Assembly (NCBI GenBank): GCA_007753915.1
Contig: CP036352.1
Span: 1,426,001 to 1,490,000, forward strand
Direction of reading: 5' to 3'
Origin: Phycisphaerae bacterium RAS2
GTDB lineage: Bacteria > Planctomycetota > Phycisphaerae > UBA1845 > UTPLA1
Length of the DNA stretch: 64,000 bases
Position numbers and translations under genes: made by a program. This document shows, in pieces, positions 2,894 to 14,956 of this stretch. Below the pieces are notes generated by a model, which saw only the letters and a program-made list of their open reading frames with translations, did not search any database and had not been told where the DNA came from. Within the stretch, counting starts at the first letter, position 1; every line of letters begins with the position of its first letter.

Positions 2894-4195
2894 TCAATTG
2901 TTCGCGGTTTCCGCACCAGGGCGCGCTTGGACGAATTGAAGCGCGGCGTCAAGCACCGGATCCTTCCCCGCGAGGACATCGGCGATCGTCGGCTCGACCA
3001 GCACGTCCGGCGTGACGGTCTGCACGTCTCCGTCCACCAGTGAAAAGTAATTCGTCGAATACATCACAACCAGCTTCGAGTGCGGCAGCGTCAGAGGCTT
3101 GATCTCGCCGTAAGCATTCGGGCTCCCGCCGGTCGGTTCGCCGATCAGCACGGCACCGTACCGCTGGCGAAGCTGGATCGCGTTCATCATCGCCGAGGAA
3201 AACGTGCCGCGGCCGATCAGCACGAGCAGGTGGCCCGGCTCGCGCAGGGCCGGCCGCCAGAGCAGGTGTGGGTACATCGCGTCGATGACCATGGAGTTGC
3301 CGCCGCCGTTGCGGCGCAGGTCGATGATCAGCCGCCATTTTTTTGCGTCCGGCCCATCTCCAGTCGGGATTCCCGTAAACATCGCGTCGCAAAGGGTGCG
3401 GAACTCGCCGAACCCGGAGCAGGTGTTGTACGCGAGGTACATCGCCGGGCCGTGCGACGGTGTCACGATTGCCTGATGCCAATAAGGTTCGGCCCGCTGC
3501 TCGGCGAGCGGCACGCGCTCCGCCGCGAACACCCAGCGCCACTCGCGGTCCGATGCAATCGGCGAAAGTTCTATAATCGCCTCTTTTCCGTTCGCGTCAG
3601 CGGTGGTAAAGGCGACGCGGTCCAGGCCGGCACTCAATCCACAGGCGTGCAGGAGCTCCGGATTTCGCATCGCAAGCGGGACGCGCCGCCGTATCTGCAT
3701 CTCATTCTCGGCGGGGAACGTCTCTGCGAGGCGTCGCGCGGCCTCGTCCACCGGCAACTCGCCGATTCGAACAAGTTTTGCGCCGAGGATTGCCTCGAAT
3801 CGTCGGAGCGTTCGCGTCACGTAATACCCGTCGTGAAGCCATTCAGCGACAATCGGCAGCGTGCGGAACCCGCCGACTTGCGCGAAGTTCTGGGCCTGCG
3901 TGTGGCCGTCGCCGATCAGCGCGATGAGCCGCATCATGCCGACGACGATTTGATGGTCCGCGAGGCGCGGCACGTCCGCGCGCAGTTTCGCCGCCGCGGA
4001 ATCGAACGACTCGCGCGAGCACTTGAAGAAGGCGTTCTTGTGCAGGCGAGGCAGTTCGTGGGCGAGGCAATCGACGTCCGCCTGCCATTTCGCATCGCGC
4101 GAGAGCTCGCGCTCGGCCGGGCGCGGTGCGGCACAACCGGCGACGGCGCACAGCACTGTGTAAAAGGCGACGCGAAGCGTAGCGGCGCGGGTCAT
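2894..4195 (-). CDS. S41 family peptidase-like lipoprotein
   Basis: 433 aa, related to tail-specific (C-terminal processing) proteases. The signal sequence ends in a lipobox (VAGC), so it is probably a lipoprotein. The S41 fold is visible in IDLRRNGGGN (about 290), the serine region GRGTFSSAMMNA, and VLIGEPTGGSPNAYGE. The ATG at 4195 overlaps the stop of the upstream gene (ATGA), which sets the start and implies translational coupling to the squalene-cyclase-like repeat protein. The canonical serine/lysine dyad is not certain by eye, so activity is inferred. Substrate unknown. Confidence 0.8.
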   Translation of the reverse strand: MTRAATLRVAFYTVLCAVAGCAAPRPAERELSRDAKWQADVDCLAHELPRLHKNAFFKCSRESFDSAAAKLRADVPRLADHQIVVGMMRLIALIGDGHTQAQNFAQVGGFRTLPIVAEWLHDGYYVTRTLRRFEAILGAKLVRIGELPVDEAARRLAETFPAENEMQIRRRVPLAMRNPELLHACGLSAGLDRVAFTTADANGKEAIIELSPIASDREWRWVFAAERVPLAEQRAEPYWHQAIVTPSHGPAMYLAYNTCSGFGEFRTLCDAMFTGIPTGDGPDAKKWRLIIDLRRNGGGNSMVIDAMYPHLLWRPALREPGHLLVLIGRGTFSSAMMNAIQLRQRYGAVLIGEPTGGSPNAYGEIKPLTLPHSKLVVMYSTNYFSLVDGDVQTVTPDVLVEPTIADVLAGKDPVLDAALQFVQARPGAETANN

Positions 4196-5391
4196 TCGGC
4201 GCTCCGCATGCCGCCGGAGTTCGCGCCCGCTGCCGTCTGAAGCGTCGTTACGGTTAATCCGGTGACATAGTCCGCATCCCCTTCCAACCAGCGATCGGCC
4301 TCGTTCAGCCAGCTTCCGTCGGGCTGTTGAAGCGAGGTGACCTTGCGGCACAGTTCAACGCGCCAATCATGCGAATGGCCCGCGCCGTCGGTGATCGTCG
4401 GTTCACCCCAGGCCACCAGAGCACGCGAGAAGACGTGATAGTAATAATACAAACCCTCTCGCTTCTGCCGATCCGGCATGCCGGGGTTAACGTCGAGCGT
4501 GTAGTTCTGCCGAATCCACGTCCGGGCCGCCGTGACGCGCGGGTCATCGCGCGAAAGCCCCGCGTATAGATAGCTCTTGAACCCCGCATAAGTCATCGAG
4601 CCGTAACTGCGTAGCGGCCGGCCAAGTTCAAAACCGCCCGTTGCCTTCGACTCGCCTCCGTCGGCCGCGGTGTAAACAAATCCGCCGTCGCTTGCGCCAC
4701 GAGCGAACGGCTGGTCGTTGGTCGTTTCGTTCATCTGGCAGCGCGAGATGAAAACAATCGCACGCTTGTAAACCGGATCATCCGTCGATAGCCCGCTCTG
4801 GTGCAGCGCCTCCAGCATCATTTGCGTGTTGGAGAGATCCGGGCGCTTCGTCGTGTTGTAGCCTGCCCCGCCGTACCACGTGTCTTTGACATCCTTCTTC
4901 TCGCTCTCGTCGTACTGCAGCCCCTTTAGAAACGCCTGCGCCTTGGCGATGTGCGGCGCATGGCGCGCGCGATCCAGCGAAGCGAGAAACGTCAAAACGA
5001 CAGATGTCTGATAGTTCGCCAGGTTCTGCTGCCGCTCGTAGAAGCCGCCGTCGTGTTGCGCGTGGCGCAGGATCGACTCGACGGCTCGCTGCACGACCGC
5101 GTGGTTCGGCCCGTAATCGGGGGAATCCGCGAAGGCCTTGGCGACAATGGCTGTCACCGCCGGGCCGTACTTGGCGTTCCAGCCGCCGTCTTTCTCCTGC
5201 CGCGCCGCGAGGAATTTCAGTGCTTTGCTGACCGTCGCGTCGGTCTGCTGCTTCACAGCCGGCGCGATGGGCGGCATGGGCGCCGGCGGAGCGATGCCGC
5301 TGGACTTCTGCGGCGAAGACCATGCCGGAGCAAGGCCCGTGAACAGGAGTCCTGCCGAAGCAGCCGCAATGAGCATCAGGGTTCTTCGCAT
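4192..5391 (-). CDS. Secreted prenyltransferase/squalene oxidase repeat protein
   Basis: 399 aa. Signal peptide (LMLIAAASAGLLFTGLAPAWS) followed by alpha/alpha-toroid repeats as in squalene-hopene cyclases and terpene cyclases: ALKFLAARQEKDGGWNAKYG, ILRHAQHDGGFYE, SLQQPDGSWLNE. It lacks a clear DXDD cyclase motif and is exported, so it is more likely a structural or binding member of this superfamily than a cyclase. AGGA eight bases before the ATG at 5391 supports the start. First gene of a two-gene unit with the S41 peptidase. Confidence 0.8.
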   Translation of the reverse strand: MRRTLMLIAAASAGLLFTGLAPAWSSPQKSSGIAPPAPMPPIAPAVKQQTDATVSKALKFLAARQEKDGGWNAKYGPAVTAIVAKAFADSPDYGPNHAVVQRAVESILRHAQHDGGFYERQQNLANYQTSVVLTFLASLDRARHAPHIAKAQAFLKGLQYDESEKKDVKDTWYGGAGYNTTKRPDLSNTQMMLEALHQSGLSTDDPVYKRAIVFISRCQMNETTNDQPFARGASDGGFVYTAADGGESKATGGFELGRPLRSYGSMTYAGFKSYLYAGLSRDDPRVTAARTWIRQNYTLDVNPGMPDRQKREGLYYYYHVFSRALVAWGEPTITDGAGHSHDWRVELCRKVTSLQQPDGSWLNEADRWLEGDADYVTGLTVTTLQTAAGANSGGMRSAE

Positions 5392-12539: not shown

Positions 12540-14048
12540 TCACACGGCGAGGTCGTCGTGACCCGGCAATTCATCGGTGGACGGTTCATCGGGCCGCAGC
12601 AGCGCCAGGCCGAGCGTGAGCGGTCCGCATCGTCCGGCGAACATCAGGAACGTCACAACGAGTTTTCCGGCGGTTGAAAGGCTGCCCGTAATGCCCGTCG
12701 AAAGCCCGACGGTGCCGATGGCGCTGACGGCTTCGAAAGACAGATCGAGGAACGGCTGCTTCTCCGTGAGCGACAGAATTGTGACACCCGTGGCAAGCAG
12801 GCAAAGGTACAGCGTGGCGGAGGCCACGGCAAACAGCACGCGCAACGCAGGAACTTCGTTCCGCAGCCAGATTACCCGGTCGCGCCCGCGCAGCACGCTG
12901 ATCAGGTTCGCGAGCAGCGCGGAGACGCTCGTAGTCTTGATGCCGCCGCCGGTGCCGCTGGGTGACGCGCCGATGACCATGGCAGCCATGATGATGAGCA
13001 GCGTGGCGGTTGTGAGGGGTGAGATTGGAATCGAGTTAAACCCTGCCGTGCTCGAAGCAGACATGACCTGGAACGCGCAGGCCATGAGGCCCTCGGCGGC
13101 AGGCAAATCGCGCACGCTCGGCTCAATGAAGTACATCGCGGCCGTGCCGACGACAAAGATCACCGCGGTCATCCACAGAATGACCTTGGATGTGTAGGTA
13201 ATCAGGTGCTCGCGGAGTTTGATGGAGAGGTAAATGTCCTGCACGACAATGAACCCGATCGCGCCGAGGTAGCAGAGCACGCCGATGATGAGATTGATCG
13301 CCCAGTCGCCGCGAAAGGCTTCGAGGCTGTTGTTGGCCAGGCCGAAACCGGCTGTGGCGAACGCGGACACGGAATGGAAAACGGCAAACCAAAGCGGCTC
13401 CTGAACGCCCAGCGCGGCAAACCGCCACCAGAGCAGCAACGCACCGATTGATTCGGCGACAAACGTGAACACGACGACATGCACGATGAACCGTTGCATG
13501 ACGAAGTAGTGCGGCACAGCGAAACCCGCCTTGAGGATTCCAAGTCGCGTGTCGGAAATGCGACCGCCGCGCGCGAGAATCATGAGCGACGACAGCGTCA
13601 TGTAACCGATGCCGCCGAGCTGAAAGAGCGCGAGCAGAACAAACTCGCCGAAGAAGGTGTAACTGTCGCGGACGCTGATGGTCGTCAGGCCGGTTGTCGA
13701 AATGGCGCTTGTGACGTTGAACAGGTGATCGACGATTCGCGCCGGCGATTGCTGCGCGAAGGGGAGGCAGAGCAGGGCCGTGCCGACGACGGCGTAGGAC
13801 GCGAAACCCAGCACGAGTTGCTGTGCCGGGCGCATGCGCGTCCAGCGCTCGAGGCCGCGTCGCGGGGGCGTCAGGACGATCCACGTTGAAAGCCGGCCCA
13901 GTGTGACCATGGCGGAGCGAATGCGCCGCCGTGGAGGCGCAGGGCTGTTAAGCTCTTGGCTTAGCAACTGCGGGGTGGAGTTGTTCTTCGACGAGAGATT
14001 GTCTGCAGTGGGCGGCGCGGATCCGCCGCCGGGGAGGCCGGTCTCCAT
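12540..14048 (-). CDS. trkH: TrkH/KtrB-family potassium transporter
   Basis: About 502 aa integral membrane K+ channel/transporter subunit. The four pseudo-symmetric pore loops are visible: SAISTTGLTT, SAFATAGFGL, SASSTAGFNS and SAIGTVGLST, plus SPSGTGGGIKTT after the third repeat, so the selectivity filter is intact. A roughly 60-residue soluble N-terminal extension precedes the first helix. The start is uncertain: ATG 14048 is used, GTG 14093 is possible. No trkA/ktrA partner is adjacent. The leader carries a cyclic-di-AMP riboswitch, so expression probably responds to c-di-AMP, a known potassium-homeostasis signal. Confidence 0.92.
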   Translation of the reverse strand: METGLPGGGSAPPTADNLSSKNNSTPQLLSQELNSPAPPRRRIRSAMVTLGRLSTWIVLTPPRRGLERWTRMRPAQQLVLGFASYAVVGTALLCLPFAQQSPARIVDHLFNVTSAISTTGLTTISVRDSYTFFGEFVLLALFQLGGIGYMTLSSLMILARGGRISDTRLGILKAGFAVPHYFVMQRFIVHVVVFTFVAESIGALLLWWRFAALGVQEPLWFAVFHSVSAFATAGFGLANNSLEAFRGDWAINLIIGVLCYLGAIGFIVVQDIYLSIKLREHLITYTSKVILWMTAVIFVVGTAAMYFIEPSVRDLPAAEGLMACAFQVMSASSTAGFNSIPISPLTTATLLIIMAAMVIGASPSGTGGGIKTTSVSALLANLISVLRGRDRVIWLRNEVPALRVLFAVASATLYLCLLATGVTILSLTEKQPFLDLSFEAVSAIGTVGLSTGITGSLSTAGKLVVTFLMFAGRCGPLTLGLALLRPDEPSTDELPGHDDLAV

Positions 14049-14178
14049 AAAGGGTTCGCTGCGCGCCCAAGCGTTTTCCGCGCATTCCTGCACGCGCGAA
14101 AAAGCGGACGCGAACGCACGAACGGATGCTCGTGAAACGCGCGATCGGTCGATCGGCTGTATCAGGAGAGCGGTTCGT

Positions 14179-14345
14179 CGTGCTCTTTCACGTGCCTGCG
14201 GGGTTAGCTGACGGGCTGGGCCTTGAAAGTGGCTTGGAGCCGACCGACTCCTTCGCCCCGGCCGCGACGCTTGATAGCAAGGCGGCGGTGGGTTCCCCGC
14301 TCCCCGGCGTCAACCGGGGACTCGGCTGCAACAACAGCTTAATCG
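14179..14345 (-). promoter_or_regulatory. Cyclic-di-AMP riboswitch (ydaO-yuaA type) in the TrkH leader
   Basis: On the minus strand this leader carries the conserved ydaO blocks in the right order: GCCGAGTCCCCGG (14326-14314), GAGCGGGGAACCCA (14302-14289), GGGGCGAAGG (14259-14250), CCCGTCAGCTAACCCCG then CAGGC (14215 onward) and GAAAGAG (14189-14183). A hairpin CCCCGG/CCGGGG sits between the first two blocks. It ends about 86-131 bases before the TrkH start. Class members bind c-di-AMP and commonly control K+ transport. The expression platform could not be resolved by eye. Confidence 0.88.
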
Positions 14346-14491
14346 TAGCTGGATTTCGGCCGGAGTCAAAGTCAAGCCGGCGTGAGCAGGCGGGCCGCAA
14401 GCAGATTGGTTATAGTGTGCGTTTTGTTCGCGTGCAGACGGTCGCTTCCGGACAACGACCAGAAGTCGCACAGCGGCCGGCAGGATGAAAC

Positions 14492-14956
14492 ATGTCGTCG
14501 CAATCCAGCGATCCAACACTCATTTCCACGACCCACCTCGTCAAGAGCGAGGACCTCAACCACCATCAAACGCTCTACGCCGGGCGATGCACCGAGTGGT
14601 GCGTGCAGATGGCGTACATCGCCGCGGAGAATTGCTTCGATGAGGCGCGGCCGGTCGTGTTCATGTCGATTCGCAGCTTGTCGATGCGAACGCCGGCGCG
14701 GCTGGGGGAGATTCTGCGATTCGAGGGGCGGGTTGATTACATCGGCGAGTCCACCATCGGCATCAAGGTCGACGCGTGGAAGCTGCAACCGAAAGACGAT
14801 CCCAAGCCGGTCGCGACGGGGACGTTCCTGTTCTGCACGGTCGATGAGCAGGGGCGGGCGGAGCCGCACGGGCTGCCGGCGCTGGCGGGGGCGTCATCGG
14901 CTTCGCAGCGTCGCTGGAAGCAGGACGATCTCGCGGTTGGCCGGTCGCCGGCATGA
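14492..14956 (+). CDS. Hotdog-fold acyl-CoA thioesterase
   Basis: 154 aa. Acyl-CoA hydrolase of the YciA/BFIT-like hotdog family: LVKSEDLNHHQTLYAGRCTEWCVQMAYIAA holds the conserved N/H...G...W segment of the hot-dog helix, followed by strands SIRSLSMRTPARLGEILRFEGRVDYIG. Likely cleaves acyl-CoA thioesters in the cytoplasm; chain specificity unknown. Its stop overlaps the mnmE start (ATGA), so the two are co-translated. Confidence 0.78.
   Translation: MSSQSSDPTLISTTHLVKSEDLNHHQTLYAGRCTEWCVQMAYIAAENCFDEARPVVFMSIRSLSMRTPARLGEILRFEGRVDYIGESTIGIKVDAWKLQPKDDPKPVATGTFLFCTVDEQGRAEPHGLPALAGASSASQRRWKQDDLAVGRSPA

Follow-up and report, generated by a model that had tools for sequence, protein, structure and literature searches.

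A predicted c-di-AMP riboswitch with a conserved downstream RNA domain ahead of a KtrB-like potassium transporter gene in a planctomycete

On the minus strand of the window, the 64,000-nt stretch of the Phycisphaerae bacterium RAS2 genome analyzed here (contig CP036352.1, positions 1,426,001 to 1,490,000), a riboswitch aptamer, a second conserved RNA domain, and a gene for a potassium transporter subunit follow one another. A cmscan of the whole window matched the c-di-AMP (ydaO/yuaA) riboswitch family RF00379 at 14337-14178 with 57.3 bits (E 1.2e-10) over model positions 1 to 134 of 134, against a gathering score of 38 bits. An earlier sequence-only reading had recognized a ydaO/c-di-AMP aptamer in this leader from its sequence blocks, all of which are there in the order it gave. 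Its location holds, but the span is 14178-14337 rather than 14179-14345, and the Infernal search with RF00379 that had been proposed as a check on the minus strand returned a score above, not below, the family threshold. A pseudoknot in the c-di-AMP aptamer is mentioned in the available text of PMC9337991, and its two strands were read by eye, with no statistic, from the window sequence: the loop strand CUUUCA (14229-14224) is complementary to UGAAAG (14190-14185), which forms both the 3' strand of the pseudoknot and the first bases of the second domain. The pair is altered in genome G216 to CUUCCA with UGGAAG, again by eye and with no statistic. The identity of the c-di-AMP aptamer is well supported by these comparisons, and the RNA would be expected to bind c-di-AMP. 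A search of the genome (4,324,589 bases, a single contig, completeness 97.4%) found this one RF00379 copy, ahead of the KtrB-like gene.

A promoter-like site (14342-14369) precedes the aptamer: TTGACT starting at 14369, a 16-nt spacer, and TACGAT ending at 14342 together give 9 of 12 consensus matches, against 0.0 ± 0.2 for shuffles. TTGAC also lies within 60 nt upstream of the aptamer match in 11 of the 14 leaders shown, the window leader included, and is absent from that interval in G303, G372, and G337. Given this site and its recurrence, transcription probably starts at or close to the aptamer's first base. An intrinsic terminator, the typical though not universal expression platform, was considered and set aside for the window leader, as a simple consensus scan of the window found no terminator-like site in 13900-14500.

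The downstream gene (12540-14048, minus strand) encodes a 502-aa KtrB-like K+ transporter subunit. Its previous designation as TrkH is correct as to the Pfam family (PF02386, E 5.4e-48), but among solved structures the protein matches KtrB chains most closely, with E values down to 7.9e-64. Translation most likely starts at ATG 14048, about 130 nt past the aptamer, and not at GTG 14093; the ATG is preferred because relatives keep an AUG 41 to 48 nt from the loop of a conserved hairpin (see below) and because the GTG of G409 is out of the gene's frame. The term “orphan” suits the gene, as no RCK gene was found among its neighbors and a KtrB-KtrA pair, in which a TrkH-family gene adjoins a gene for a TrkA_N/TrkA_C protein, sits elsewhere in the genome; the KtrA-type protein whose presence was to be checked is thereby accounted for. 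The genome has three TrkH-family matches, two of them above the cut-off. The third is a divergent TrkH-like protein of 561 aa (L043:1468-3150), just under the Pfam cut-off.

Genes predicted to make and degrade c-di-AMP are present in the same genome. The single DAC-domain match is a 300-aa, CdaA-like protein, for which a diadenylate cyclase is the best solved match (E 3.1e-39). PgpH architecture is seen in a second protein, which carries the Pfam domains 7TM-7TMR_HD, 7TMR-HDED, and HD, as a PgpH-type HD phosphodiesterase would. The CdaA-type gene is followed by a 349-aa open reading frame (ORF) in what we take to be the usual place of cdaR; Pfam gave no match to this ORF. In the predicted cyclase (L032:1405-2304), DMG replaces the DGA of the aligned solved chains, and GSRHR replaces their GTRHR. 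The lack of such enzymes, which the sequence-only reading had named as grounds against itself, was not observed; together with the covariance score above threshold, the enzyme genes support its view of an aptamer connected with K+ uptake.

RF00379 was found in at least 46 of the 392 genomes searched from the phylum, at least 21 of 114 from the order, and at least 75 of 397 from the class (74 over the cut-off), all lower bounds owing to the stricter filters used. These searches provided a comparison set of 148 aptamer places in 117 genomes, three of the places being below the cut-off. Assigned against seed proteins, the downstream genes encode KimA-related APC transporters in 63 cases, KtrB/TrkH in 37, KdpA in 7, and Kup in 2; another 10 encode SPFH proteins, 2 (by eye) histidine kinases, and 27, some with little downstream DNA, received no assignment. 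Pfam confirmed the assignment for a single representative in each of the SPFH, KdpA, and Kup groups. With either of the two APC types examined, no solved relative but KimA reaches an E of 0.001 or lower, the match being strong for the G489 protein (E 1.3e-54) and weak for that of G515 (E 4.5e-10), the type associated with the second domain. From this tally and the relationship to KimA we conclude that c-di-AMP aptamers before predicted K+ importers are ordinary in Planctomycetota. The SPFH/Band_7 genes stand behind aptamers L002, L029, L062, L073, L079, L082, L085, L086, L087, and L088. On contig 163 of G568, two divergent aptamers, L119 and L131 (4368-4532 minus and 4634-4846 plus), lie ~100 nt apart.

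Between the aptamer and the gene lies a second conserved, structured RNA domain (14190-14065, minus strand), which the sequence-only reading overlooked while describing the aptamer correctly. It measures 126 nt in the window and 118 to 164 nt among its members, and it comprises two helices, P_A and P_B, an unpaired UCCUG, and a hairpin, P_D, with a CAGGA loop. By alignment and covariation test, P_A pairs GCAC-G-ACG (14183-14176) with CGU(UC)GUGC (14124-14116), and P_B pairs GCUC (14171-14168) with GAGC (14131-14128). P_D (14103-14074), recognized by sequence comparison and pairing, has 12 bp and the loop GCAGGA at 14091-14086, to which the unpaired UCCUGA (14167-14162) is complementary over 5 nt. 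The pattern common to the leaders reads UGAAAG, GCAC(R)ACG, GCUC, UCCUG(C/A), a variable stretch, GAGC, CGU..GUGC, and a hairpin with a (G)CAGGA loop.

Two models, R1 and R2, represent the domain; the window sequence, which belongs to the training set, scores 105.6 bits with R1. In a MAFFT alignment of 12 leaders (A1), picked for showing the pattern and so not an unbiased sample, P_A, P_B, and P_D have 88.9% paired cells and a covariation of 0.300, compared with 0.149 ± 0.022 in shuffles (0 of 500) and at most 0.104 for slid structures. Both sides change in 6 of the 7 pairs of P_D, 1 of the 4 of P_B, and none of the 7 of P_A. Eighteen model-aligned leaders, in an alignment that leans toward the structure, give 0.341 against 0.157 ± 0.018. 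Free folding of 14200-14030 recovers P_B, the long P_D, and pairings near P_A, although the z-score is no better than -1.64. The words [GU]CAGGA occur 106 times on both strands of the 64-kb window; 4 are closed by at least 6 pairs, and the leader's 12-pair stem is the longest. The idea that the domain is a known RNA was set aside after comparison with Rfam, which gave no match to it at an E of 1 or lower in 8 loci; within 14030-14200 only four matches appeared at an E of up to 10, all far below their gathering scores and with an E of 1.3 or worse. The domain and its helices are well supported by sequence comparison, and a c-di-AMP riboswitch with such a conserved downstream domain is apparently undescribed.

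Tallied by eye, 20 of the 21 members set out below have UCCUG and 19 have CAGGA; G595 has CCCUG with CAGGU, and G535 is without a recognizable loop motif. Beyond the 5 complementary nucleotides, 11 of 20 members also have a pair at the sixth position (C-G in 10, A-U in 1), and 9 have a mismatch there. With a near-invariant 5-nt core and such a sixth position, covariation between the two words is not demonstrable among the 21 members; their complementarity suggests that UCCUG and CAGGA may contact each other.

R1 was searched at all 148 aptamer places, including L153 with only 93 nt of downstream sequence. It gave 16 matches of at least 24.9 bits, and most of these c-di-AMP aptamers, those of the KtrB leaders of G303, G372, and G337 among them, are without the domain. 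Sequences that it recovered from outside the training set are G556 (64.3 bits) and G595 (40.1 bits) and, more weakly, G556 contig 6 (28.6 bits) and G535 (24.9 bits); the best match otherwise, the window aside, reaches 17.6 bits and overlaps the aptamer itself. The KtrB leaders of G303, G372, G337, and G447 score 13.7 to 15.1 bits at the right place. Those of G303, G372, and G337 have neither UCCUG nor CAGGA, and by eye G303 and G372 retain a P_A-like pairing. Among the 397 class genomes, R1 made 14 matches of at least 40 bits (12 of them training sequences), every one directly behind RF00379, with a gap of up to ~80 nt from aptamer to domain where a hairpin is inserted. In L109, L119, L126, and L129, extra sequence with an apparent hairpin, seen by eye, separates aptamer helix P1 from the pseudoknot strand UGAAAGGGCAC, owing to which the Rfam match seems to stop too early.

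A pattern scan of 84,980 species genomes returned 8 loci. Four are identical to the loci of G531, G568, G515, and G539, and L205 to that of G556; L203 and L204, with R1 scores of 67.5 and 62.1 bits outside the training set and with RF00379, are further members. The gammaproteobacterial L202 was rejected as a chance hit, having no R1 match at an E of 0.1 and no RF00379 and lying within a 299-aa ORF on the opposite strand. R2, applied to 400 genomes of the order of G732, gave 7 matches, all 7 directly behind RF00379: two that were known before, another two that are the same as L203 and L204, and three new and outside the training set, G895 (79.4 bits), G831 (71.7 bits), and G877 (53.7 bits). Two of the 7 are among the 14 of the class sample, and the five newly listed matches all have RF00379 directly in front. 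The order of G515, covered in all its 26 genomes, held no strong member beyond the known ones. In the R1 and R2 searches of more than 40 genomes, scoring was confined to the top 8 candidates in each genome, so that lone or weak copies may escape. Altogether, 21 distinct members are on record, of which 19 are strong and 2 weak; they are followed by a KimA-related APC gene in 11 cases and a KtrB-like gene in 9, the gene being deleted in 1. In G499, of the same genus as the window's host (L162, ~3363-4412), aptamer and domain are kept, at 66.1 and 103.8 bits, together with a promoter-like stretch, trkH is deleted after about two dozen codons, and a gene with a tRNA-editing domain comes next; the neighboring genes examined are the same.

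Candidates for stand-alone copies of the domain, nine class matches of at most 31.2 bits and one of 24.4 bits, were discarded, as all lie inside open frames of at least 357 aa. None of these ten loci has RF00379, the one other Rfam match being far below threshold, to another family, in L197. UCCUG and CAGGA are the arms of one short hairpin in G742 (L191), and the other nine loci contain at most one of the words; all ten look like chance matches.

The distance to the start codon is conserved as well. In 17 of the 21 members, the distance between an AUG and the leading base of the loop motif is 41 to 48 nt, counting G499 with its frame now cut short, and CAGGA is ~44 nt upstream of the AUG in the window leader. 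The exceptions are G568 with an AUG at 110 nt, G895 with one only at 19, G831 with none found, and G535 for want of a loop motif. L204 (G863) has its AUG 43 nt from the UCAGGA loop of the hairpin and 33 nt from a nearby second copy, and L203 (G1016) has an additional in-frame AUG at 17. In G895 (L207), AAG occupies the place of the relatives' conserved AUG (ACCATGGAGCC, aligned by eye), and the in-frame AUG is the one at 19 nt. An ordinary Shine-Dalgarno role for CAGGA was dismissed, ~40 nt from the AUG being too far.

The reading that we favor, at a little better than an even chance, is that the leader is a c-di-AMP riboswitch that switches off translation of a KtrB-like K+ importer through a conserved platform. 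Transcription would begin at the aptamer. High K+ would raise c-di-AMP, and the aptamer would fold; its terminal pseudoknot would take up the UGAAAG strand, directly abutting P_A, and in that position may stabilize the UCCUG-CAGGA contact. The P_A/P_B/P_D domain would then fold up compactly, with the unpaired UCCUG paired to the P_D loop, and the long, rigid P_D stem just upstream of the AUG would exclude the 30S subunit. We infer c-di-AMP binding, the contact, the translational level, and the OFF direction from several sources: the level from the AUG spacing and the scan without a terminator, the direction from described c-di-AMP switches, mostly OFF in the available text of PMC6488665, and the pseudoknot-stabilized contact by analogy with the nlpC riboswitch of Corynebacterium glutamicum as far as PMC9960051 is accessible. 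What counts against such a switch is the AGGA of the P_D loop, which at ~40 nt from the AUG is beyond ordinary ribosome-binding-site distance, the 4 of 21 members without the 41- to 48-nt spacing, and the absence of the domain from most of the 148 aptamers.

Control at transcription, by a Rho-dependent or unrecognized terminator, with the domain only a stabilizing leader structure, is possible though rather unlikely. Most c-di-AMP switches described so far turn transcription off by means of intrinsic terminators, according to the accessible parts of PMC6488665 and PMC9960051, but the simple scan found no such site around the leader, a terminator would have no need of conserved unpaired sequence, and the AUG spacing is kept in 17 of 21 leaders. 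Less probable still, and doubtful in our judgment, is that the domain is an aptamer for another ligand, the downstream half of a two-input riboswitch in which c-di-AMP and an osmotic signal, possibly K+, gate translation of the K+ importer. Natural Na+/c-di-AMP tandem gates exist, as the available text of PMC9337991 describes, and a multihelix fold with invariant unpaired bases ahead of two kinds of transporter would suit a second aptamer. Against this, the conserved unpaired bases are few and the main two sets are complementary to each other, and every strong domain match comes with a c-di-AMP aptamer. The lack of an Rfam match at the domain likewise gives no sign of a Na+ riboswitch, provided that this class is represented in Rfam. 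That P_D is the binding site of a CsrA-like protein, a second and protein-based input, is very improbable: the stem is free in sequence and the loop fixed, and a GGA presented by a hairpin loop close to the start codon resembles CsrA-type sites, but CAGGA does not fit the CsrA core ANGGA, and the equally conserved complementary UCCUG and the linkage to the aptamer would be left unexplained.

Riboswitch expression platforms are usually little conserved in sequence. The proposed translational switch would have a conserved platform that travels with its aptamer before two kinds of K+ transporter at a mostly fixed distance from the AUG; it may show how a terminator-less c-di-AMP switch works, and it places c-di-AMP control of K+ uptake in Planctomycetota. 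Among the open-licence papers searched we found none on such control in this phylum, and the subject is not treated in the available portions of PMC2864571, PMC4686210 (on KdpD homologues), and PMC6193735 (its reference list).

As a member of the RF00379 ydaO/yuaA family, the window aptamer passes the Rfam cut-off at full length and has both pseudoknot strands. The known switches of kimA in Bacillus subtilis and kdpFABC in B. thuringiensis likewise have a K+ importer downstream, as far as the accessible text of PMC6488665 goes; the window leader differs in having no detected intrinsic terminator, a conserved second domain, and a planctomycete host. Closer in its presumed action is the C. glutamicum nlpC riboswitch, for which, in the available sections of PMC9960051, translational action is argued and a CTCC-GGAG pseudoknot over the ribosome-binding site is suggested. 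Like the window leader it has no canonical terminator and is a probable translational OFF switch, and its suggested pairing is comparable with UCCUG-CAGGA; in contrast, its target is a cell wall peptidase and not a K+ transporter, and its pairing involves the ribosome-binding site itself, whereas the CAGGA of the window lies in the hairpin loop of the conserved domain, ~44 nt from the AUG. The Na+-I/c-di-AMP tandem and c-di-AMP doublets likewise combine a c-di-AMP aptamer with another conserved RNA structure in one leader, as described in the accessible parts of PMC9337991 and PMC9481103, respectively. The partners in those arrangements are known aptamers, Na+-I standing upstream with a terminator of its own (PMC9337991, available text), while the partner in the window lies downstream, matches no Rfam family, and adjoins the pseudoknot of the aptamer.
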